Position numbers and translations under genes: made by a program. The notes under the pieces are model-generated. The model saw nothing but the letters and a program-made list of their open reading frames with translations. It was not told the DNA's origin and ran no database searches. A stretch of 64,000 bases of DNA from Pseudobdellovibrio exovorus JSS (GTDB lineage: Bacteria > Bdellovibrionota > Bdellovibrionia > Bdellovibrionales > Bdellovibrionaceae): assembly GCF_000348725.1 (NCBI RefSeq), contig NC_020813.1, positions 620,001 to 684,000 of the forward strand, given 5' to 3'. Positions 8,529 through 26,429 of the stretch are shown piece by piece (the first letter of the stretch is position 1; the number at the start of each line of letters is the position of its first letter).

Positions 8529-8630
8529 TTCCTAATTTTCTAACTATTCTAAATGCTTAAGAAAAACCAGAAAAATAGGCCTCTGGCTTGCTTTGCTAAA
8601 GTGTATTGAACAATTAAATTGGAGGAACTT

Positions 8631-9152
8631 ATGAAAAACATATTTTTAGGATTAGTCTTAGCTTTAGTAGGTTTTGGTTGTGCTCAAGATAAACAGACAG
8701 CCTACACGACGACAGCAACACCACAATACACTTACATGAATGGATCTTGTTATGACTACGCTAACATGGTGTATGTGGCCAGCAGCTACTGTAGTTCGAC
8801 AACGGCATCAACAGGTTACGTCTATAATAATGGATACTGTTATTCGACAACAACAGGTCAGTATGTAGATAGCTCTTACTGCTCAACAACAACAACCGGA
8901 ACAACCAATACAGGATATGTCTATTACAATGGTTACTGCTACTCAACGACGACAGGGCAATATGTTTCAACAGCGTATTGCAGTACGACCGGCACTACCG
9001 GTACAACTGTAGGTGGAACTGGTGGCACTTGCTACGGAACTTATATTTATTCTCAAGGTGGTTATTATCAGTATGTGCAATGTTCTGGCTACAATTGTCG
9101 TGGGTACATGTTGATTCAAGCCAACACAGGTCAAACAGTTTACTGTCAGTAA
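8631..9152 (+). CDS. Tyr/Cys/Thr-repeat lipoprotein
   Basis: The start is ATG 8631, behind the excellent ribosome site GGAGGAACTT; the TTG at 8619 lies inside that site. The 173-residue precursor has a lipobox GFGC (Cys near residue 17). The mature part holds three tandem units of about 30 residues with the pattern Y-x-NG-x-CY ... YV-x3-YCS-T-rich linker. The second and third units are nearly identical and the first is diverged. A fourth Tyr/Cys-rich part ends the protein. Paired cysteines in each unit suggest one disulphide per repeat. Function unknown; a surface-exposed or adhesive role is only a guess. Confidence 0.75.
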   Translation: MKNIFLGLVLALVGFGCAQDKQTAYTTTATPQYTYMNGSCYDYANMVYVASSYCSSTTASTGYVYNNGYCYSTTTGQYVDSSYCSTTTTGTTNTGYVYYNGYCYSTTTGQYVSTAYCSTTGTTGTTVGGTGGTCYGTYIYSQGGYYQYVQCSGYNCRGYMLIQANTGQTVYCQ

Positions 9153-11458: not shown

Positions 11459-12775
11459 TTACTGACCGATCTTTAAAATATACTCAGCAATAATTTTTAA
11501 CTCAGCATCGGGTAAGGGCATCGGAGGCATCTGCGGATAGTCCGGGCGCTTTTTACCGGGTGCTTTTGTCCATGCGACAATGCCATCAGGGTTTCCCGTA
11601 TAGATCTTAGCAATCTCTTTTAATGGTGGTCCCACCAAGCGTGTATCCAAACCATGACAGGCAAAACAAGCATGGGACAGCTGTTTTCCCCGTTCCAGTA
11701 AAGTCGACTCATCCAGTGGACCCGATTCAACTAAGGCCTGCAGTGCAGCTTGTTCTTGGGCTTCTTTTACCAGCTTCTGATAAGCTATGGTTTTTTCAGC
11801 CACTGCTTTTTTGTGATGTGAAAGAGCCTGCTCACGATAAAAGTGACGGCCAGAGGCCATACACAGAACAGTTAATCCCAATAAGCTCGCAATTTTAATA
11901 ACTCGACTTCCGGCAGTGCCGGTTTCCTGTACTTCTTTCCACATCAACCAAATGGCAGGCACAGCGATAAATACTCCTGAAAAAATCGTCACCAGCATTT
12001 TCATGCTCAGCCCATGTGAGGGCAGGGATATTAAAACCAGTGGCCCAATTAGAAATTGCAAGGCGGTTACAATTAAAGCGATGACATAAAATTGGCGTAT
12101 AAAAAAGGATCTGTTTTCTGCTAAGGAAGATTCAAGTTTGGCAAAAGTTTCGTATTTAAACATCCAAACTAAAAATAAAGAGGTGACGCTGATACAGGCC
12201 GCCATAAAGTGTAAGTAGCGCGTGAACACACTAGGAAGCATCATCGCAGAAACAAAGCCTTTTACTGCCGCCCACTTTTCGGGGAACAGCATCAGATTGA
12301 TATTGGTCAGAAAAACAAGAGGAATAAACAGAAAGATCGCAACCACTATGGCGATGATTGAAATATGGATTGTTTTGTGTTGCTGCAATATAGTCCATGT
12401 GTACTTGTGCAAATAAGTCAGTAAAAAGGCTACGGCGACTGAAGGAACAACAAGCATCCAAACAGATCCTGTTAAAGAGTTCGCTGCGTAAAACCAAACT
12501 GTGTAAAGCACATTGATGATCAGCAAAGGAGCGACGCCCAGTACGACGGCCATACTTTTATTGACGGTGATTGTTTTGGCGATGAACAAAGCCAGCTCGT
12601 CGTAGATTTTATTTCCTCGTCCGCGAATTTCATAAATAAGAGCAAAGATAGCGCCACCGACCATTAGGTTAACAAATAGCAAATGGGCGATGAAGGAAAG
12701 GACTAATAAAGTTTTTAAAAAAACTTCGGCGGCCGGTAGCGGCAAAGGAATGTCATGTGGGATAGGAGTTTTCAT
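11459..12775 (-). CDS. CydA-superfamily membrane cytochrome with C-terminal cytochrome c domain (subunit 2)
   Basis: A 438-residue inner-membrane protein with about nine TM helices, then a monohaem class I cytochrome c domain: CFACH at 370-374 and a later MPPMP giving the Met ligand. The first helix has H in IAHLLFVNLMVGG, aligning with the CydA haem ligand His19 region. The segment YLHFMAACISVT aligns by eye with the E. coli CydA His186 (haem b558) region. The glutamates of the oxygen-binding helix seen in the partner are missing. Its start directly abuts the partner's stop (one base between), so they are co-expressed. It is probably part of a quinol- or cytochrome-linked terminal oxidase or reductase. 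Confidence 0.7.
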   Translation of the reverse strand: MKTPIPHDIPLPLPAAEVFLKTLLVLSFIAHLLFVNLMVGGAIFALIYEIRGRGNKIYDELALFIAKTITVNKSMAVVLGVAPLLIINVLYTVWFYAANSLTGSVWMLVVPSVAVAFLLTYLHKYTWTILQQHKTIHISIIAIVVAIFLFIPLVFLTNINLMLFPEKWAAVKGFVSAMMLPSVFTRYLHFMAACISVTSLFLVWMFKYETFAKLESSLAENRSFFIRQFYVIALIVTALQFLIGPLVLISLPSHGLSMKMLVTIFSGVFIAVPAIWLMWKEVQETGTAGSRVIKIASLLGLTVLCMASGRHFYREQALSHHKKAVAEKTIAYQKLVKEAQEQAALQALVESGPLDESTLLERGKQLSHACFACHGLDTRLVGPPLKEIAKIYTGNPDGIVAWTKAPGKKRPDYPQMPPMPLPDAELKIIAEYILKIGQ

Positions 12776-14161
12776 TTAGCGGGTTTCCTTCTTGTCTTCT
12801 TCAGTTGAAATACCGATAACTTGCACGCCTTCAAACGGTTCTTGGCTGTATTGTAAAGAGATCAGATATTTTGCAAGTGCCTGTCGCTCTTTTTCATTTC
12901 CGGGAAATGGAGGCATAAAAATACGGGTTTGATGCATAACTGCAAGATAGTTGGTAATAGTCTCCACATTCCAAGGGTTGCTGCCGTACATATGACTTAA
13001 CTTAGTGACGACTGAATTCACTCCGTTAACTGTGTGGCATCTGGTGCAAGTGAGATTGAAGACCTCGCGTCCGGCAGCGAGTTTATTTTGTTCTGTTATT
13101 TCGCGTATAGAGACATAAGGTGCGTGTTTTAAGATTCCATCACGTTGTAATAATGGGTAGTCATCTTTACGAAAGCCATTGGCATACAGATAGTTACCGA
13201 TAACGTAGGGTTTACGAATAAACTCACGCGATCGTTCAAATTGCCCCATAAAAATGATGAAAATAATAAAAGGAGTAACCATTACCGCTTTAGAAAGTCT
13301 ACCGGTCTTGATGCCTTTCAATGTCAGTAATAAAACAAACAGAATTGCAATAACAATGGTATAAAGCACACCTTTATACCATGAAGTGAACTCTTGTGTT
13401 GTCAGGGCCACATTAAAATTGGCACGCATAGAATCCGGTATTGCCTGTAAGTACCAATAAGAACCCAAACCTAAAAAAGGCAACCAGGCTAGAATCCATT
13501 TTGAAATAAACTTGGTCGCTTTTTTTCTAAAGTCGTCACTGACTTGTGTAAAAGCCAGAACCAAGAAGGTTGAGCCTCCGGCCATGACCATGGCCAAAGG
13601 CGTTCGGAATGCCAACTGCGGTAAATAGATTGGATTAACAAAACCAGATAAGAAGGATTTATCAGTCAGCCAGTTACCTGGATCCATCATAAAGGCAAGA
13701 ATAGCCACAATGATGGCCATTGTTAGCCATGACGTTAAAGCGAGGTTAAAACCTAAGCGAACATGACCTCGCTTGCGATCATTGACCCATTTATCCCATG
13801 TTAAATAGTAATACAAAATCAGAATCACTTCGGTGACAAAACAAATCCACTCTGTGAACCAGGCCCAGAAAAAAACGCGGATTAAGCTGGCAATAGAGGT
13901 GGGATTAACTAACGATGCCGAAAACCAAATTCCCACACCGGTCATGGCGCCGACAGTAGTGGTGATCAGAAAAAAAGAAAATAAAGTTTTTTTAGCAAAG
14001 CGATCCCATTCGGGATCATAAAGACCTTTTCGTTCCATGCATGCGATGATCAGCATGCCTCCTACCGCAAGGGCATGTGTGATCACAACGTGGGTTATGG
14101 CAACAATTGCAATAAGAAGGCGATTACCAAGAAAGTCTAAATGATATAAGGGGAAATCCAT
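12776..14161 (-). CDS. CydA-superfamily membrane cytochrome with C-terminal cytochrome c domain (subunit 1)
   Basis: A 461-residue inner-membrane protein with about nine TM helices and a C-terminal monohaem cytochrome c domain (CTRCH at 372-376, Met ligand in FMPPF). The N-terminal part follows E. coli CydA: a His in the first helix (ITHVVITHALAVGG), an Glu-bearing loop, a KTLFSFFLITTTVGAMTG segment and a helix with two glutamates (TEWICFVTEV), like the CydA Glu99/Glu107 helix. The equivalent of CydA His186 is not seen. No CydB gene lies next to it. The paralogous partner follows immediately and a RegA-like box lies 53 bases upstream. The donor (quinol or cytochrome c) and the acceptor (O2 is likely) are inferred. 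Confidence 0.72.
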   Translation of the reverse strand: MDFPLYHLDFLGNRLLIAIVAITHVVITHALAVGGMLIIACMERKGLYDPEWDRFAKKTLFSFFLITTTVGAMTGVGIWFSASLVNPTSIASLIRVFFWAWFTEWICFVTEVILILYYYLTWDKWVNDRKRGHVRLGFNLALTSWLTMAIIVAILAFMMDPGNWLTDKSFLSGFVNPIYLPQLAFRTPLAMVMAGGSTFLVLAFTQVSDDFRKKATKFISKWILAWLPFLGLGSYWYLQAIPDSMRANFNVALTTQEFTSWYKGVLYTIVIAILFVLLLTLKGIKTGRLSKAVMVTPFIIFIIFMGQFERSREFIRKPYVIGNYLYANGFRKDDYPLLQRDGILKHAPYVSIREITEQNKLAAGREVFNLTCTRCHTVNGVNSVVTKLSHMYGSNPWNVETITNYLAVMHQTRIFMPPFPGNEKERQALAKYLISLQYSQEPFEGVQVIGISTEEDKKETR

Positions 14162-14234: not shown

Positions 14235-15485
14235 CTAGATGGCTTCGTCTAAGATGCGATCCCAAATTAAAAAGAAAAAACTAATAAGTAGCATGAATAG
14301 CCCAGAAATTATAAAGGCAAAATAAGAATGAAAACTTGCGTGTTGAATCATGTTCAACGAGCCACCAAATGGAGTAATAATCATAATTGAACCACCTAAG
14401 ACAATAAGTCCACACCAAGCGAATACTTGTGAGGCTGAAAAGAATGAACTTACACTTGGTTTTTGTCGCACATAAACATTTAGATAAATTAATGGGACAG
14501 CTAGGGTTATGATACTGGTTTTGAAGTTTTCAAACATACCACTCGTTAATAATATTTTTCCACTACCGACAGATGTTATGCAGACAAGAACTAACGCTAA
14601 AAGTAAGATCATGTGGGCCGCCCATTCCCCACGTGAAATGATTAGCAATGCATGATTACGCCAGCGATAATTCAGGATCGTTCCCAGTGAAGTAATGTAT
14701 CCAGCTAAGCCGACAGATAGAAAAAACTGATTTAACAAATATAGTAATTGAGACCTATCAGAGGCTTCTGTGATACTTTGAAACCCTGTCAGCATGCAAA
14801 GACCTGATACCACACAGATAATAAGAAGAGGTTTGCTGCTGTCTAATTTTGATGCCACCAATAATCGTAGGAAAACTGTTGTAAAAACACTAATTAAAAA
14901 CATTTGGTCTAAAAAGTCTTTCGCTGGCAATGTTATGGCATAAAGATTATTCGTAGATCCCCAAAAAAATTGCGTGCTTTGTAAGACAAACAGGCACAGG
15001 CCAATGCCAATAAGCGAAGTTAGCAACACTGAAGGAATTTTTTCGATTAAGCTTTGTGAGGATTGATGAGCTCTTTGTTCTACAATAATTAAAGCGGATG
15101 AAACTATAGATCCCAATTGCAGCAATAAAAAGAACAGTTGCCCTTGTTCTGGAGCTTGTTCTAATCCAAAATATGTATAGTGATGGTATAAAAAAGGATA
15201 GAAACAAACACCAATAAATAAAATACTTTGTAAGAAGATAATAGTAGTCACAAGCTTTAGGTTTGGAGGACTATCCTTTTGATATGAATTCATCATAGAG
15301 AGTGCTGGAACCCCAACAATAAATAATCCGCAAGAGAGTACGACATTTATGAATGTATGAAGTATTTCTATATTAGACGAGTATCCTGTAAAAGTACGTA
15401 CAAGCAGTATAAATGCTAAAAGGCAGCCTAAAAGCGTCCAAATAAATGGTAGATTACGATACAGACGGTGGAGTGATATTTCCAT
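14235..15485 (-). CDS. Twelve-TM membrane protein of unknown family
   Basis: The start is ATG 15485, behind GAAGG; an ATG at 15515 lacks a ribosome site. The protein has 416 residues with about twelve hydrophobic helices and very short loops. Histidines occur in or near helices 2 (ILHTFIN), 9 (EWAAHMIL) and 12 (HASFHSYFAF). The helix count recalls the core subunit of haem-copper oxidases or NnrS-type proteins, but the usual paired His motifs are not present, so no family is assigned. Lying between the bd-like cytochrome pair and the RegA-like gene, and behind its own RegA-like box, it probably belongs to the same respiratory module. Confidence 0.65.
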   Translation of the reverse strand: MEISLHRLYRNLPFIWTLLGCLLAFILLVRTFTGYSSNIEILHTFINVVLSCGLFIVGVPALSMMNSYQKDSPPNLKLVTTIIFLQSILFIGVCFYPFLYHHYTYFGLEQAPEQGQLFFLLLQLGSIVSSALIIVEQRAHQSSQSLIEKIPSVLLTSLIGIGLCLFVLQSTQFFWGSTNNLYAITLPAKDFLDQMFLISVFTTVFLRLLVASKLDSSKPLLIICVVSGLCMLTGFQSITEASDRSQLLYLLNQFFLSVGLAGYITSLGTILNYRWRNHALLIISRGEWAAHMILLLALVLVCITSVGSGKILLTSGMFENFKTSIITLAVPLIYLNVYVRQKPSVSSFFSASQVFAWCGLIVLGGSIMIITPFGGSLNMIQHASFHSYFAFIISGLFMLLISFFFLIWDRILDEAI

Positions 15486-15534
15486 AGAACCTTCTTTCGT
15501 GACAAGAGTAATCATGGAAATGAGTCAGAGGAAT

Positions 15535-15599: not shown

Positions 15600-16112
15600 T
15601 TATGTATATTTTTTTAATTTTCGTTGAAGGCTTTGGCGATGTAACCCTAAATCTTTAGCGGTCTTAGTTATATTGCCTTCGTTTTTTGTCAGCAAGAAAT
15701 CTATATATTCATGTTCAACCTGTGAAAGAGAAGGCGCTTTAAAGTCTGGGTCAGCTTGAATCCTTTGTCCTAAAAGAGCTTTTTCAATTTCATAGAAACT
15801 GGCTGGTTTTGTTAGGTAGTCAGTTGCTCCTCTTTTCATAGCCTCCACAGCAGTCGAAACGCTGCCGTAGCCAGATAAGATAACTAAAGAGCAAGTGGGT
15901 GAATTGGATTTGATCAGTTGAATAGCATCTAAACCAAACTCTCCACATAGACGTATATCTACTAAGGCATAATCAAAAAATTCTTTTGGAATTTCAGATA
16001 TTTTCGATGCTGTGACAACTGTATAGCCATGATCAGTGAATTCCTGAGCTAAGCTTTTTGAAAGATTAATGTCATCGTCTAAAATCAGTAAATGACGAGT
16101 AGTCTGAATCAT
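15600..16112 (-). CDS. RegA/PrrA/ActR-family redox response regulator
   Basis: A 170-residue protein with a receiver domain (acidic pocket LDDD at 11-14, phosphoryl Asp52 in VDIRLC, conserved Lys in LTKPAS) and a short C-terminal Fis-type helix-turn-helix. The ending ITKTAKDLGLHRQSLQRKL is the hallmark of RegA/PrrA/ActR regulators (SETARRLNMHRRTLQR in RegA). In proteobacteria these control respiratory oxidases, hydrogenases and redox genes. It overlaps the sensor kinase by four bases and is transcribed with it. Three candidate binding boxes lie in the adjoining gaps. Confidence 0.85.
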   Translation of the reverse strand: MIQTTRHLLILDDDINLSKSLAQEFTDHGYTVVTASKISEIPKEFFDYALVDIRLCGEFGLDAIQLIKSNSPTCSLVILSGYGSVSTAVEAMKRGATDYLTKPASFYEIEKALLGQRIQADPDFKAPSLSQVEHEYIDFLLTKNEGNITKTAKDLGLHRQSLQRKLKKYT

Positions 16113-17494
16113 ACAGCTCCTTTAACCGAGGGCCACTGTAAAATTACACGTCCTCCGGATTCGTAGTTTTGAATGATTAGGTCTCCACCAAGTGACTGTG
16201 CGAACAGCTGTGAGGTGTAGAGGCCAAGCCCTGTGCCGTGGGATTTTGTTGTGATAAAAGGTTCACCGAATTTTTCTAAGACTAAAGAGGGAAAGCCTGT
16301 TCCTTGATCGCTGAATGTTAAAATATGTAATCCATGAAGAAGTTGATGTTGAATTATTATAGGCTTAGCAGGAGCCGCCTCAGCGGCATTATCTAAAAGA
16401 TTTAAAATCACTTGTGCGAATGTCAGAAGGGGAACAGAGACGCGATCTGTTTTTTCTATTTTCAAAATAACAGTCACTTCGGGATGTTGTTCTTTCCATG
16501 TGTCGACGATGTCTTGTATGAATTCAAGCGTACTGACTGTTTTGTTTTTGAAATCGCGCGTATCCATCTGTGAGGAATTCATCTGATGAATCACTTGCTC
16601 GCATGAACGAATAGCGGCTAAAGCTTCTGTTAAGTCCTCTGCGTACTGGGGAACTCGTGCCATGCGTTCAAGTCGGATTTTTGCTGTATTCAGTGGGCTT
16701 GCAAACTCGTGGGAAAAACCAGCGGTCAGTGCCCCTAGAGCTCTAAGACGATCTTGTTTTTCGGCCGCCAACCGCGCTTGTGCATTCCACTGATGTTGTT
16801 TAGCAAGGTAGCCACCGAGGGCATGCATGACGACCCAAAAGCTAAAGATCAGTAAATGTGAAATACAGATAATAACAAATGTCTGTAAGTCGAAAGGGTG
16901 GTTCAAAAGATAATACATTTGCAGCAGTGCTAGAAATGCATGGGTTAAGACAAGGAATGGCCAGCCCAATGATCCGGGCAGAAGAATGGCGCCCAACGAG
17001 GCGTTCAATAGAAACAAGACAATGAAGGGATTTTCGAAGCCACCGCTGCTCAGTAACAAAAGTGAAAGAGCTGTCAGATCGAATGTCAGGTGCAAGCCGA
17101 TCATATAGGGTTCTGCAGATGTTTTACGATGATTCCACACTAACTGCATGAACAGATTAAATAAAAAGACAGTGCTGATGATACCGATGTAAATAGGAAG
17201 ATTAGATCTTTCTAGATAGCCAAAGATGAGGTTCGGTATGGACATGGTAAAAAATAAGAAGACAGCCATCCAGCGTAATTTAATCAGCCAAAGAATTTTA
17301 GTCAGTTCTGGATCTGATTTCTGATAGGGGAATTTAAAAAGATTTAAACTCTCTTTAAGCAGAGATGATACGGAGGCGTCTTCCGAAGTTATCGAAAAAA
17401 GCCTCGTGCGAATAGACTGCAAAGCACTTAACGCATTCACAGCTAAGACATAACGTAGAATTATTATTTTGGCGACTATTGATAATTGATGCAA
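16109..17494 (-). CDS. RegB/PrrB/ActS-family redox sensor histidine kinase
   Basis: About 461 residues from a TTG at 17494. The true start is uncertain: there is no ribosome site, the TTG lies inside a palindrome, and a GTG at 17440 is an alternative. Six TM helices include GGFENPF (151-157), matching the quinone-sensing GGxxNPF of RegB. The H-box is FSHEFASPLNT (His262). A cysteine 36 residues later (IRSCEQVIHQM) aligns with the redox-active RegB Cys265 (DRCRDILRSM). An N-box (NLLDNAAEA) and GTGLGLY complete the ATPase domain. It should sense the quinone pool and thiol redox state and signal to the RegA-like protein. Confidence 0.85.
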   Translation of the reverse strand: MHQLSIVAKIIILRYVLAVNALSALQSIRTRLFSITSEDASVSSLLKESLNLFKFPYQKSDPELTKILWLIKLRWMAVFLFFTMSIPNLIFGYLERSNLPIYIGIISTVFLFNLFMQLVWNHRKTSAEPYMIGLHLTFDLTALSLLLLSSGGFENPFIVLFLLNASLGAILLPGSLGWPFLVLTHAFLALLQMYYLLNHPFDLQTFVIICISHLLIFSFWVVMHALGGYLAKQHQWNAQARLAAEKQDRLRALGALTAGFSHEFASPLNTAKIRLERMARVPQYAEDLTEALAAIRSCEQVIHQMNSSQMDTRDFKNKTVSTLEFIQDIVDTWKEQHPEVTVILKIEKTDRVSVPLLTFAQVILNLLDNAAEAAPAKPIIIQHQLLHGLHILTFSDQGTGFPSLVLEKFGEPFITTKSHGTGLGLYTSQLFAQSLGGDLIIQNYESGGRVILQWPSVKGAV

Positions 17495-19350: not shown

Positions 19351-21042
19351 ATGAATATATTTGATGTATTACAGTTGATTCTTTTTGTGGGGGTATTATT
19401 TTTATTAACACCCCCTTTGGGAAAATTTATGGCCGCTGTTTTCAAGGGGGAGACAACATGGCTTCATAAGCCATTGGGTTGGCTTGAGCGATTAACCTAC
19501 AAAATAAGTGGCATTGATTCTAAGAAAGATATGGGGTGGAAAGAGTATGCTCTTTGCCTGATGGCATTTAATATCTTAGGGATTGTTGTCCTTTTCCTTT
19601 TGCAGTTGATACAAGGTGGACTTCCGTTTAATCCTCAGGCTATTTCTGGGATCACATGGGACTCGGCTTTAAATACTGCTGTTAGTTTTGTAACCAATAC
19701 CAATTGGCAAGGGTATGCCGGTGAAACAACGATGAGCTATTTGACACAGATGATTGGTCTAGCTTATCAAAACTTTGTCAGTGCGGCTGTAGGTATCGCT
19801 GTGGCTGTTGCTGTGACCAGAGGGATTGCGCGCAAATCTCTAGAGGGAATAGGAAACTTCTGGACCGATCTGACTCGTTCAGTAATTTACATTCTTTTGC
19901 CGAGTTCTTTTGTTTTAGCGATAGTTTTGGTGTCTCAAGGCGTTGTTCAAAACTTTTCACCTTATCTTGAGGCGCTGACATTAGAGGGAGCAAAACAAAT
20001 GCTTCCTTTTGGGCCAGCGGCTTCGCAGATTGCAATTAAAATGTTAGGAACAAATGGCGGCGGTTTTTTCAACTCGAATTCATCACATCCATTTGAAAAT
20101 CCGACAGCTTTTTCTAACCTATTACAAATGTTAGCAATTTTTGTGATTCCAGCAGCTTTGACCTATATGTTTGGCGTGATGACCAATGCAAAAAAACATG
20201 GGTGGTTGATATTTGGTGTAATGTTAGCATTATTTTTAGGTCTTACTGGGGCTTCTCTTTACTCAGAGTATTCTCATAATCCGGTAGTGTCACAAAGTGC
20301 AGTGATGGAAGGAAAAGAAACTAGATTTGGTACCTTTAACAGTGTCCTATTTTCTACTGTGACAACATCGGCTTCGTGTGGGGCCGTTAACTCTATGCAT
20401 TCATCGTTATCACCGCTTTCTGGCGGAGTTGCTTTGTTCAATATGATGTTAGGTGAGATTATTTTTGGAGGCGTAGGCGCCGGACTATATGGGATGTTAC
20501 TTTTTGTCTTACTGACAGTTTTTCTGTCCGGATTGATGGTTGGCCGAACACCGGAGTATTTAGGTAAAAAAATCGAAGGCAAAGAAATGACTATGGTTAT
20601 TGTGGCTATTCTGGCTCCTTGTACGATGATCCTCGTCGGTTCAGCGTTTTCCTCTGTTTTACCTATGGGGCTGTCTAGTCTGGCGAATAAGGGGCCACAT
20701 GGATTTACTGAGATCTTGTACGCCTTTTCTTCTGCGGCTGGTAATAACGGTAGTGCCTTTGCTGGTCTGAATGCGAATACGCCGTATTATAATTTGTTTT
20801 TAGCATTAGCTATGTTTGTTGGACGTTTTGCAGTAATTATTCCCATATTAGCTGTAGCGGGAAGCTTGGCTAAAAAGAAAGTTTCACCTCCGTCCAGCGG
20901 AACATTTGAAGTTGATAGTCTGTTGTTCGCAGTACTTTTAATCGGAGTTATTTTAATTGTCGGTGCATTGACCTTTTTACCAGCTCTTTCTTTGGGACCT
21001 ATTATGGAACATATTTTGATGCTGAACGGACGCACTTTCTAA
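19351..21042 (+). CDS. kdpA: KdpA, potassium-translocating subunit
   Basis: A 563-residue polytopic membrane protein, near the usual 557. It carries the KdpA selectivity-filter segments [29 protein letters not shown] and [14 protein letters not shown]. It binds and selects K+ and passes it to KdpB. It follows kdpF and is 11 bases before kdpB. Confidence 0.97.
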
Positions 21043-21053
21043 GGAGCCCTATT

Positions 21054-23138
21054 ATGAATAAAAATAAAAACAATCTTTTAACAAGTGATCTTTTACTTTC
21101 AGCGATCAAAGAGTCTTTTCTTAAACTGAACCCTAAAGTTCAGATGAAGAACCCAGTTATGTTTGTGACTTTGGTTGGGGCGGCTTTAACCACGGTTATT
21201 TCGTTACTAAATGTTGGTCGCGATTCAAGCTCATTTGAAATTCAAATCACTTTATGGTTATGGTTCACGGTGCTATTTGCAAATTTTGCGGAAGCTATCG
21301 CTGAAGGTAGGGGTAAAGCACAGGCAGATTCTCTGCGTAAATCCAGAACTTCGACAGAGGCACGTCTGTTAAAGTCAGGTAAAGAAACACGTATTTCGGC
21401 AGCAAATTTAAAGCTGCATGATTTAGTGGTTTGCGAAGCTGGGGATATTATTCCTGGAGACGGTGAAATCACTGAAGGGATTGCCAGTGTCGATGAATCT
21501 GCAATCACAGGTGAGTCAGCTCCGGTCATCCGAGAATCGGGTGGCGATAGAAGTGCTGTTACGGGTGGGACACGAGTCATCAGTGATCGTATCGTGGTCC
21601 GTATTACAGCAGAAGCCGGAAGTAGCTTTTTAGATCGCATGATTGCTTTAGTTGAAGGGGCTAAACGACAAAAAACACCGAATGAAATCGCTTTAAGTAT
21701 TGTTTTATCCGGTCTGACAATTATCTTTGTTCTAGCTGTTATGACTTTAAAGCCATTTACTGATTATGCTGCGGCAGCCGCAGGACAGGATTTATCTGTG
21801 ATCATCACAGTTCCAGTGATGATTGCTCTGTTAGTGTGTTTAATTCCGACAACGATCGGCGGTCTTTTGAGTGCTATTGGTATCAGTGGTATGGATCGTT
21901 TGATCCAAAAAAATGTAATCGCGACTAGTGGACGTGCCGTTGAAGCCGCAGGCGATATTGATGTTCTGTTGTTGGATAAAACAGGTACGATCACTCTGGG
22001 AAATCGTATGGCCTCAAATTTTTTGTCTGTTCAAGGGGTACAAACTCAAGATTTGGCAAAAGCTGCGCAGTTGGCTTCTTTGGCAGATGAAACGCCAGAG
22101 GGACGTTCGATTGTAGTACTGGCGAAAGAAAAATTTGCGTTAAGAGCAGAAGCTGTACAACCTCATCAAGTTGAGTTTGTTCCTTTTACAGCTCAGACCC
22201 GCATGAGCGGAATTGATTTTGATCAAGAGGGTAAAACAATCAGTATTCGCAAAGGTGCGGCTGATTCTATTGTGAAGTATGTCCAAGAGTTAGGTGGGCA
22301 GGTTCCTTCAGATCTGAAGGCCATAGTTGATGGGGTCGCTAAAAAAGGAGCGACACCGTTAGTTGTGGTGCAAGAAAAGCAAATTCTTGGCGTTGTTGAC
22401 CTTAAAGACGTTGTTAAAGGTGGTATTCGTGAACGCTTTGCTGAGCTTAGAAAAATGGGTATCAAAACGGTAATGATTACGGGTGATAATGCTATGACAG
22501 CGGCGGCCATTGCAGCTGAAGCCGGAGTCGATGACTTTATGGCGCAAGCAACTCCTGAAACTAAGCTGAAGCGCATTCGTGAAGAGCAAGCCAAAGGACA
22601 TCTTGTCGCTATGACTGGGGATGGAACCAATGATGCTCCTGCTTTGGCGCAGGCTGATGTCGGTGTGGCGATGAATACGGGTACACAGGCCGCCCGTGAA
22701 GCGGGTAATATGGTGGACTTGGATAGTAATCCGACAAAACTGATTGAAATTGTTGAAATAGGAAAACAATTATTAATGACGCGTGGAAGTTTAACGACCT
22801 TCAGTATCGCTAATGATGTCGCCAAATATTTTGCAATTTTACCAGCTTTATTCGGAGCATTGTATATCTCGCAAGCTGAGAAAGCTGGGCCGCTTACTAT
22901 TTTTAATATTATGAATTTAGCATCTCCTCAAAGTGCTATTTTAAGCGCGGTGATTTTCAATGCTTTAATTATTGTGGCACTAATTCCGTTAGCTTTACGT
23001 GGTGTTGCCTACAGAGCAGAGGGCTCGTCAGCTGTTTTGCGACGCAACCTTCTGATTTATGGTTTGGGTGGTATTATTATTCCATTCGTCGGCATTAAAG
23101 TTATCGATTTAGTGATTACCTCTATAGGTCTTGTTTAA
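21054..23138 (+). CDS. kdpB: KdpB, P-type ATPase subunit
   Basis: A 694-residue P-type ATPase. It has the actuator motif TGES, the phosphorylation motif DKTGT with Asp308 (E. coli Asp307), the ATP-binding KGA segment, the hinge [11 protein letters not shown], and seven TM helices typical of KdpB. ATP hydrolysis here drives K+ uptake through KdpA. The length is close to the family norm (682). Confidence 0.97.
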
Positions 23139-23153
23139 AAGGAGTTTTGATTT

Positions 23154-23726
23154 ATGAAAGCGATAATGAATTCAATTCGAATTACATTGTTTTTGATGTT
23201 AGTTTTGGGTTTAGCATATCCGTTAGTGGTGACAGGAGTTGCGCAATTGGCTTTTAATGAAAAAGCCAATGGCTCATTAATCTATGATGGGGATCAGCTT
23301 CGGGGGTCGATGTTGATAGCACAGAACTTTGAAAAACCTGAATACTTTTGGCCTCGCCCATCAGTAATTTCATTTAATCCGCTTCCTTCAGGTGGGAGTA
23401 ATTTGGGCACCACATCTGCGGCCTTACAGCAAACGGTACAGGAAAGACGTGAAAAGTTACAAGCGGCCCATACAGGAATGGGGGCACCGCCTCAGCATCT
23501 TCTATTTGCATCCAGTAGCGGTTTAGATCCCCATGTAAGCGTTGAGGCTGTTCAATATCAGGTTCAAAGAGTAGCTTTAGCCCGTGAACAGTCGATTGAA
23601 GATATTCAGAAACTGGTTTCGTCTCATATAGAGCGTCGTCAATTCGGAATTTTAGGTGAAGAGACTGTGAATGTCTTGGCTCTGAACCTAGCTCTTGATA
23701 AAATGACAGGCAGTAGTAACAAATAA
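23154..23726 (+). CDS. kdpC: KdpC, K+-ATPase accessory subunit
   Basis: A 190-residue protein with one N-terminal TM helix and a periplasmic domain. The motifs FEKPEYFWPRPS and SGGSNLG and the C-terminal GEETVNVLALNLAL are KdpC signatures. It helps the pump's affinity for ATP and K+. It is preceded by AAAAGGAG and followed 12 bases later by kdpD. Confidence 0.95.
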   Translation: MKAIMNSIRITLFLMLVLGLAYPLVVTGVAQLAFNEKANGSLIYDGDQLRGSMLIAQNFEKPEYFWPRPSVISFNPLPSGGSNLGTTSAALQQTVQERREKLQAAHTGMGAPPQHLLFASSSGLDPHVSVEAVQYQVQRVALAREQSIEDIQKLVSSHIERRQFGILGEETVNVLALNLALDKMTGSSNK

Positions 23727-23738
23727 AGGATATAAGGT

Positions 23739-26429
23739 GTGACGGACGAATCTCGGCTGGATCCAGATGCACTATTAAAAGTTATTGATGATGAGGCGAA
23801 ATTAAGGTCTCAAGGTAAGCTTCGTGTTTTTCTAGGTATGTCAGCTGGGGTTGGAAAAACCTATGCGATGCTTAAAGCCGCCCATAGAGCTCAATCCGAA
23901 GGGCACTCAGTCCTTGTCGGAGTTGTCGAGACTCATGGGCGTTCTGAAACAGCAGAGCTGTTGACCGGTCTTGAGATTTTACCACGAAAAATTATCCAGC
24001 ATCGAGGCATTGATTTAGAAGAGTTGGATCTGGATGCAATTCTGATTAAAAAACCTGACATTGTTATCGTCGACGAGTTACCACATAGCAATGTTCCGGG
24101 ATCGCGCCATGAAAAGCGCTATCAAGATGTTTTAGAAATTTTAAGGGCTGGAATTGATGTCTTCACGGCCTTGAATGTTCAGCATTTGGAAAGTCGAAAA
24201 GATGCTGTCGAAAGCATTACGGGCATTAGAATACGTGAAACAGTACCAGATAGTATTCTGGATCAGGCGACGTTGGTTGAAGTGGTCGACATTGCACCTT
24301 CGGAGCTTTTAAAGCGTCTTGCTGATGGTAAAGTATATTTAAAAGACAAAGCGACAGAAGCAGCAGCTAAATTTTTTAAAGAAGATAAGTTAACAGCATT
24401 GCGTGAGATTGCTTTGCGTATGACAGCGGAGCGTGTGGATCAGGATCTGCAACGGTTTTCGGTCAAGCGAAATGATAGCCCATGGCAAACGAATGAAAGA
24501 TTATTAGTAGCTGTTTCACATAGCCCATATTCTGAAAAGCTTTTACGCGCGACTAGAAGACTGGCTTATAATCTTGAGTCTCCTTGGATAGCTGTGCATA
24601 TTGATACGGGTATAAAACTTAGTGATGAGGATCAGGCACAACTGGTAAAAAATCTACATCTTGCGCGTGAGCTCAGTGCTGAAGTTATTACAACCACTGA
24701 CACTAGTATTGCCTCTGCTATTAAACGTATCGCACGACAAAAAAATGTAACTCAAGTTGTTGTCGGACGTCCCACAAGACGGTGGTTTAGGGATGTCATC
24801 GAGGGTGGATCGCTTCTGTCCCGTTTGGTGAATGAAAGCCATGATGTAGATGTCCATGTTATTCGCATGGAGAATCTTAAACATCGTCGGCCGTCCTTCT
24901 GGGCTGAACTAGCTCTTTATCGCACAAAAACAGGAATTATTAAATATTGGAATACGCTGTGTTTTTTAGTGGGCGTTACTTTTTTTAGTGCACTTTTTCA
25001 GGACTATATAGGTTACCGAGCTATAGGATTTATTTTTCTATTAGCGGTATTAATTGTAGGAATGTTTGGAAGTATTGGTGCTGTTCTTTTTGCAGCTGCT
25101 TTCAGCGCATTATTCTGGGATTTTCTTTTTATTGCACCTCGCTTTACATTCACAATAGCTTCCCCAGAAGATATTATTCTGTGCATTTCCTATTTTGCTG
25201 TGGCCTTAATAACCGGATTTTTGACTAATAGGATTCGTTTTCAAGAAAAGCTGATGCGTGAGCGTGAAGAAAGAATGGAAGTTCTTTACCGTATTCTAAA
25301 AGACATCTCAGAAAGTTATGATAAGAAAGAATTTATTCAAAAAGTACGTGCTCGCGTTGGACAGCTATTCGACGGAGAGTGTGGCGTTCTTCTTAAAGCT
25401 AAAGAGAGTGTTTTGGATTTTTCTAATTCCGATGAGTATCCCTTACCTCTGAATGATAAAGAGCGAGCGGTGGCTCTTTGGACTTTTCAAAATCAGAAGG
25501 CGGCAGGTTGGTCGACAGAAACTTTATCACAGGCACAGGCCTTATATTTACCATTAAACGGAATGAATGAAACTGTCGGTGTCTTTGTGTTTCGTCCAGA
25601 AAAAAAAATAAGAAAATTTGGTCTAGATCAAGAAACTTTACTTTATACTATTGTGGGACAATTAGGGTTTTCTATTGAACGCCATTTTTTAAGAAAAAGA
25701 ATTATTGAAGCTCAAAGAGTTGAAGACTCAGAAAAACTACAGCAGACTATTCTGGCTTCTATTTCCCACGAACTCCGAACTCCGTTAACAGCTATTCTTG
25801 GTTCTGCTGCCGCCTTAGACAGTGATTTGATTAGTAATCCTTTGGCAAAGGATATTGTTAAAGATATTGAGTTCAATAGTGAGAGATTGAATCGTGTTAT
25901 TGAGAATTTATTGGATATGAGTCGTCTTTCCAGTGGCTCATTGGCGTTGAATTTGGAATGGCAAGATATTAGCGATCTTATTGGTGTTGTCTTAAAAAAG
26001 CATGCAAAACCTTTGCAAAGCCATCGAGTGGAAGTAGGCCTTCAATCTGAACTACCATTAGTGCGTATGGACTTCCGTCTTTTTGAACACGCCTTGGCTA
26101 ATCTTATATTGAATGCGGCTCAATATAGCCAACCAGATACTAAAATTATTATACGTGCTTATACCCATGAAAAACAGTTGGTTCTAGAGGTAAAAGATCA
26201 TGGTGCTGGTATCCCCGTTGAATTTATAGGGCAGATTTTTGAAAAATTTTATCGCGTTCCCGGGACTTTGCCTGGCGGCACAGGATTAGGTCTTTCTATT
26301 GTGAAAAATATTGTTGAACTTCATCGAGGTACTATTCTCTACCACAAAAATGAACCTCAGGGATCACGATTTATTATTTATCTGCCGTTGGAGCCACAGC
26401 CGACATTGCCTATAGAGGAAAACGCATGA
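23739..26429 (+). CDS. kdpD: KdpD, potassium/turgor sensor histidine kinase
   Basis: An 896-residue protein from a GTG start. The N-terminal KdpD domain has the Walker A-like GMSAGVGKTY and the Walker B region IVDELPHSN. A universal-stress-protein domain (LLVAVSHSPYSEKLLR) follows, then four TM helices (about 405-500), a GAF-like region, the H-box ISHELRTPL (His677), NLILNAAQY and GTGLGLS. It senses low K+ or turgor and phosphorylates KdpE. It overlaps kdpE by four bases. Confidence 0.95.
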   Translation: MTDESRLDPDALLKVIDDEAKLRSQGKLRVFLGMSAGVGKTYAMLKAAHRAQSEGHSVLVGVVETHGRSETAELLTGLEILPRKIIQHRGIDLEELDLDAILIKKPDIVIVDELPHSNVPGSRHEKRYQDVLEILRAGIDVFTALNVQHLESRKDAVESITGIRIRETVPDSILDQATLVEVVDIAPSELLKRLADGKVYLKDKATEAAAKFFKEDKLTALREIALRMTAERVDQDLQRFSVKRNDSPWQTNERLLVAVSHSPYSEKLLRATRRLAYNLESPWIAVHIDTGIKLSDEDQAQLVKNLHLARELSAEVITTTDTSIASAIKRIARQKNVTQVVVGRPTRRWFRDVIEGGSLLSRLVNESHDVDVHVIRMENLKHRRPSFWAELALYRTKTGIIKYWNTLCFLVGVTFFSALFQDYIGYRAIGFIFLLAVLIVGMFGSIGAVLFAAAFSALFWDFLFIAPRFTFTIASPEDIILCISYFAVALITGFLTNRIRFQEKLMREREERMEVLYRILKDISESYDKKEFIQKVRARVGQLFDGECGVLLKAKESVLDFSNSDEYPLPLNDKERAVALWTFQNQKAAGWSTETLSQAQALYLPLNGMNETVGVFVFRPEKKIRKFGLDQETLLYTIVGQLGFSIERHFLRKRIIEAQRVEDSEKLQQTILASISHELRTPLTAILGSAAALDSDLISNPLAKDIVKDIEFNSERLNRVIENLLDMSRLSSGSLALNLEWQDISDLIGVVLKKHAKPLQSHRVEVGLQSELPLVRMDFRLFEHALANLILNAAQYSQPDTKIIIRAYTHEKQLVLEVKDHGAGIPVEFIGQIFEKFYRVPGTLPGGTGLGLSIVKNIVELHRGTILYHKNEPQGSRFIIYLPLEPQPTLPIEENA

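Follow-up and report, generated by a model that had tools for sequence, protein, structure and literature searches.

Do two neighbouring CydA-like proteins, each carrying its own cytochrome c domain, make a bd-type oxidase that works without CydB, and if so, in which of the two do the haem sites lie? The question is raised by two genes in the window, the whole stretch of 64,000 nucleotides analysed here (Pseudobdellovibrio exovorus JSS, contig NC_020813.1). A preliminary description had read them as two CydA paralogues that share haem sites between them. We refer to the proteins as S1 and S2.

Two abutting genes with fused cytochrome c domains

The two open reading frames lie on the minus strand exactly where the preliminary description had put them, and they abut, the stop codon of S1 (TAA) being followed with zero spacer by the ATG of S2.

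12776..14161, minus strand: S1, CydA-like, probable catalytic subunit, 461 aa; open reading frame with eight TM helices and a C-terminal cytochrome c domain
12854..13093, minus strand: cytochrome c domain in S1, residues 357-436 (PF13442, E 2.4e-7, and PF00034); C372-x-x-C375-H376, distal M416
11459..12775, minus strand: S2, CydA-like, probable second subunit, 438 aa; open reading frame with eight TM helices and a C-terminal cytochrome c domain
11465..11698, minus strand: cytochrome c domain in S2, residues 360-437 (PF00034, E 1.4e-8); CFACH at 370-374

These Pfam matches bear out the proposed fusion of a cytochrome c domain to each protein. The other motifs that had been described are likewise present in both: CxxCH (372-376 in S1, 370-374 in S2) with MPP downstream, and a TM1 histidine ahead of a glycine pair (H24/H29 then G34-G35 in S1, H31 then G40-G41 in S2). 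C372, C375, H376 and M416 of the S1 c domain are invariant in 81 relatives, and the S2 c domain is c551/c552-like by structure comparison. The helix count has to be corrected, since about nine TM helices had been assigned to each protein whereas the predicted models give eight per subunit, one fewer than CydA. Given eight helices and an N-terminus placed as in CydA, the C-terminal c domains of both subunits would lie in the periplasm.

S1 and S2 have the CydA fold

The membrane parts of S1 and S2 received no family name from Pfam or NCBIfam, and a Pfam search of the whole genome gave zero matches to PF01654 (CydA) and PF02322 (CydB). The pair is thus CydB-less, as had been proposed, to the extent that no cydB was found by Pfam elsewhere in the genome. 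Since the Pfam CydA model misses S1, oxidase censuses relying on that model would overlook such pairs.

More sensitive comparisons place both proteins firmly. With S1 alone, phmmer against the PDB retrieved Geobacillus CydA (5doq_A, E 2.9e-7). When relatives were added and the cytochrome c domains removed, hhalign matched the TM part of S1 to the CydA profile with an E-value of 7e-12, against 0.0067 for the CydB profile, and the TM parts of S1 and S2 to each other at 2.5e-10. The AF2 model of S2 (pLDDT 87.9, pTM 0.75) superposes on ten CydA chains with Z scores of 24-26 over ∼300 residues (26.4 for 7ose_A), and for the S1 half, taken from a model of S1 and S2 as a joined chain, Z scores against CydA are 23-25, 25.4 at best. 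The joined model itself, at pTM 0.62, is too weak to support S1-S2 contact. By structure Z scores and profile E-values alike, S1 and S2 therefore have the CydA core fold by which membership is judged, and it is confirmed that they are distantly related CydA-fold proteins of the cytochrome bd superfamily, in agreement with their earlier assignment as CydA-type members.

Two other origins were considered for S2. Descent from CydB is ruled out by the profile comparison of its TM part (E 0.0097 for CydB versus 1.7e-8 for CydA). A protein of the NrfD or alternative complex III type is a weaker match in fold: alternative complex III subunits, the next best fold for the S2 model, reach a Z score of ∼17 versus 26 for CydA.

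In a tree of the TM parts, S1, S2 and the CydA of quinol-type (qOR) enzymes form three separate, fully supported groups, with branches so long that the branching order among the three is unsure. S1 and S2 split before the family spread, and several relationships are seen in the S1 and S2 groups alike: the window pairs with an Oligoflexia genome, Thermus pairs with Methylosinus, and Kaistia with Agrobacterium.

The dihaem ligand set is complete in S1

Haem ligands were mapped by profile alignment and by conservation across 81 S1 and 80 S2 sequences. In E. coli CydA, H19 is a haem ligand and E107 acts in proton transfer. E445 and E99 are the active-site ligands facing haems b595 and d, while H186 and M393 bind haem b558 (PMC6853902). 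The S1 equivalents are H24 (H19), E104 (E99), E111 (E107), E313 (E445) and R316 (R448), and all five, together with H29 and E309, are invariant in the 81 relatives. E104 and E111 are spaced by seven, as in the Geobacillus enzyme and one below E. coli, whose two-glutamate helix has an inserted Leu101 (PMC6853902). S1 thus holds the whole dihaem active-site set (H19, E99 and E445; also E107 and R448), of which S2 has only the H19 equivalent, H31. This histidine is invariant in S2, and the relatives from Thermus, Methylosinus and L125 have it as well; the glutamate pair of the active-site helix is absent from S2. Because the complete set lies in S1 alone, S1 is probably the catalytic subunit and S2 probably a CydA-derived partner in the place of CydB.

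The b558 ligands tell a different story. At the H186 position S1 has F185/R186, and a conserved methionine equivalent to M393 is absent from S1 in the 81 relatives, so the b558 site is gone. The earlier observation that S1 has the two-glutamate helix and lacks the H186 equivalent therefore holds. S2 does have a histidine here, H189, and lacks the glutamates, as had also been noted, but the histidine is not fixed in the family: it is His in 67 of the 80 relatives and Glu in 13.

Two half-enzymes might share the haem sites: a dihaem site in S1 and, on H189 of S2, a haem resembling b558 would together rebuild the three-haem CydA. The alignment of H189 with E. coli H186, which S1 lacks, speaks for such an arrangement, as does the presence of the histidine in the distant relative L125; the glutamate in 13 of 80 S2 proteins, the loss of H189 in Thermus and Methylosinus and the lack of any conserved S2 methionine across the 80 relatives that could stand for M393 speak against it, and we consider it quite unlikely. 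The proposed split of ligands between the subunits thus stands only in that the H186 equivalent occurs in S2 and not in S1. All mappable active-site ligands are in S1 and the b558 pair is not rebuilt in S2, and the sharing of haem sites by the two paralogues is not supported; the invariant H31 of S2 corresponds to H19 and not to a ligand that S1 is missing.

The thirteen S2 relatives with Glu-189 (L020, L022, L023, L035, L041, L048, L055, L058, L063, L073, L077, L079 and L082) are all Bacteroidota by record title, and their RYxEF motif is otherwise unaltered.

S1 has a second invariant TM1 histidine, H29. To our knowledge, nothing in the E. coli enzyme explains the invariance of S1 H29 and S2 H31, and we count this against our main reading of S1 and S2 as an oxidase. 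H29 might give a low-spin bis-His haem, and S2 has lost the active-site glutamates; both would suit a complex that transfers electrons or acts as a sensor and has no O2 chemistry, the bd fold being a mere haem scaffold. Every mapped active-site residue of S1 (among them E104, E111, E313 and R316) is nevertheless kept in 81 of 81 relatives, which makes such a complex very improbable.

Relation to known bd families

According to papers citing Murali et al. 2021 (ISME J 15:3534), the bd superfamily comprises three families, qOR, OR-C and OR-N, with a quinol site only in qOR. A 2021 review (PMC8509429) adds that every bd-type cytochrome characterised biochemically by then was a quinol oxidase, and that one using a different donor was still to be obtained. 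The qOR features, H186 and M393, the Q-loop and a CydB partner, are absent from S1S2, in which the second protein is CydA-like, and the tree separates the three clades. The absence of a quinol site and the predicted use of cytochrome c, given for OR-C in PMC8509429, are matched by the loss of the b558 ligands and the fused c domain, a combination that does not on its own tell OR-C from OR-N. Judged by described family features, S1S2 probably belongs to the non-quinol part of the superfamily, in OR-C, with whose members, as portrayed in papers citing Murali et al. 2021, it would share a position outside qOR, a predicted donor that is cytochrome c or another non-quinol and a fused c haem.

The OR-N CydAA' enzymes of Nitrospinota and Nitrospirales also have two CydA-type subunits, no CydB and cytochrome c as presumed donor (PMC10839748 and PMC12342949). 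The first of these papers regards the OR-N enzymes as likely CydAA' pairs using cytochrome c. They differ from S1S2 in lineage and gene neighbourhood, standing for example beside alternative complex III, and the likeness is one of description only.

The CydAB quinol oxidases (E. coli bd-I; Geobacillus thermodenitrificans, 5doq) have in common with S1S2 the CydA fold and, in S1, the H19/E99/E107/E445/R448 set with the Geobacillus-type glutamate spacing. They differ in that S1S2 is without b558 ligands, Q-loop region and TM9, has a CydA-type partner replacing CydB and has gained cytochrome c domains. The archaeal CydAA' of Caldivirga reportedly also consists of two co-associated CydA paralogues without CydB; it is said to oxidise quinol and to have no c haem, and is likened to S1S2 by description only.

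The pair is widespread and patchily distributed

In 84,980 species genomes that were scanned, 129 stretches were confirmed, and the analysis covered the best 80 of these. The loci among these best 80 of 129 come from Bacteroidota, Pseudomonadota, Planctomycetota, Acidobacteriota, Verrucomicrobiota and others. S2 lies directly behind S1 in 81 of 82 loci, the remaining one ending at a contig edge, and the relatives from Thermus, Methylosinus and L125 likewise have S2 behind S1. With 80 loci elsewhere, dozens of invariant S1 positions and this constant pairing, the observation as a whole is far beyond chance. The c domains are less uniform. That of S2 is absent in many alphaproteobacterial and more distant relatives, whereas the S1 c haem is invariant, and S1 of L125 has two c domains. 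A planctomycete S1 (L025, 3997-6081) is lengthened to 694 aa and has a second CxxCH motif.

Within the window's own GTDB family, S1 was found in 2 of 66 genomes, and a full-length match in ∼6 of 369 genomes of its phylum. So patchy a spread suggests that the pair has moved horizontally or has often been lost. Plasmids of Agrobacterium, Thermus and Methylosinus carry related pairs, whose genes are annotated there only as, for example, 'c-type cytochrome', 'cytochrome C' or 'hypothetical protein'. One genome of the same phylum (L124, G150) has a distant S1-like gene at 1489-2793, with no S2-like frame among the open reading frames listed in that stretch.

S1S2 is most probably a further example of a widespread type of pair whose family has already been proposed in the literature and is biochemically uncharacterised. 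Being compact and made of two genes, it would be a clean candidate for a first test of a non-quinol bd enzyme, and pairs are present in cultivable hosts (Xanthobacter, Myroides, Flavobacterium, Methylobacter and Agrobacterium).

Proposed function and mechanism

We think it likely that S1 and S2 together form a CydB-less, cytochrome c-oxidising O2 reductase of the bd superfamily. The donor is proposed from the fused c domains and the lost b558 ligands, and the earlier suggestion that electrons enter through c haem is supported by these domains. Electrons would pass from a periplasmic cytochrome c to the c haem at the C-terminus of S1, and to that of S2 where present, and from there to the dihaem site of S1, bypassing quinol and haem b558. 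H24, E104 and E313 of S1 would serve as haem ligands and E111 would stand on the proton input path. At the dihaem site O2 would be reduced to water with protons taken from the cytoplasm, which would render the reaction electrogenic. S2 is probably a structural partner replacing CydB in the putative heterodimer and may bind a haem of its own through H31.

A further step can be imagined, in which H31 of S2 binds a b-type haem, by way of which electrons from the c haems reach S1, while H29 remodels the S1 active site. We hold this to be possible but doubtful; if true, it would give a bd oxidase whose haems are arranged differently from those of qOR, electrons entering through a haem in the second, CydA-type subunit.

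Neighbourhood and genome context

S1 and S2 lie downstream of a two-component pair and a membrane protein, all in one direction.

16109..17494, minus strand: RegB/PrrB/ActS-like redox histidine kinase, probable regulator of the operon (NF033792, E 4e-37, below the equivalog cut-off)
15600..16112, minus strand: RegA/PrrA/ActR-like response regulator (NF033791, E 5e-33, below the equivalog cut-off; PF00072 and PF02954); gene overlaps the kinase gene by 4 bases
14235..15515, minus strand: polytopic membrane protein with no family match, encoded between the RegA-like gene and S1 and apparently in one operon with them

The five genes apparently form one operon; promoter- and terminator-like sites at the locus were near or below chance. 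The two regulators are named RegB/RegA-like because their best NCBIfam families score below the equivalog cut-offs (128.1 bits versus 350 for the kinase, 114.5 versus 250 for the regulator). The kinase has the sequence GGFENPF, which we take to fit the quinone-sensing GGxxNPF motif of RegB. RegB-like kinases adjoin S1S2 in ten loci of the set, the window included, and RegB-like is the best NCBIfam match for the kinase in seven relatives, of which two are plasmid-borne. Such kinases stand next to the pair in Bdellovibrionota, Alphaproteobacteria and one planctomycete. Bacteroidota instead have an AraC-type regulator as neighbour, joined in some cases by SCO1/SenC and YHS-domain proteins. In the window, expression of S1S2 is probably governed by the adjoining RegB/RegA-like redox sensor.

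NO and peroxide also react at bd-type haem sites, which we count against the main reading. S1S2 could be a c-type enzyme that detoxifies NO or peroxide on the bd dihaem site and not a respiratory oxidase: NO detoxification is reported for quinol bd oxidases (PMC10839748), and the genome already has genes for two haem-copper oxidases, so that the need for a third is not obvious. The regulator, however, is of the type that senses redox state and the quinone pool, and is so in several phyla, and no NO-response gene was recognised among the annotated neighbours; a detoxifying role seems unlikely to us.

One of the two haem-copper oxidases has a c-haem-bearing CoxB and the other is cbb3-like. A cytochrome bc1-type b subunit (PF00033) gave no match in the genome; a single NrfD-type protein is present, which could belong to an alternative complex III. 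The haem-copper oxidases and the possible alternative complex III make a cytochrome c pool plausible.

The membrane protein at 14235-15515 had zero matches in Pfam, NCBIfam, the PDB or the plasmids, and tblastn found it only in the window's own genome and in a genome of the same family (L002). There its relative also stands beside S1, and no histidine motif was seen in common between the two. Elsewhere in the window, an apparent kdpA-kdpB-kdpC-kdpD potassium uptake cluster, judged from its sequence, occupies 19351-26429 on the plus strand, and a small secreted-looking protein encoded at 8619-9152, also on the plus strand, consists of repeated Tyr/Cys/Thr-rich units (YxYxNGYCYSTTTGQYV-like).
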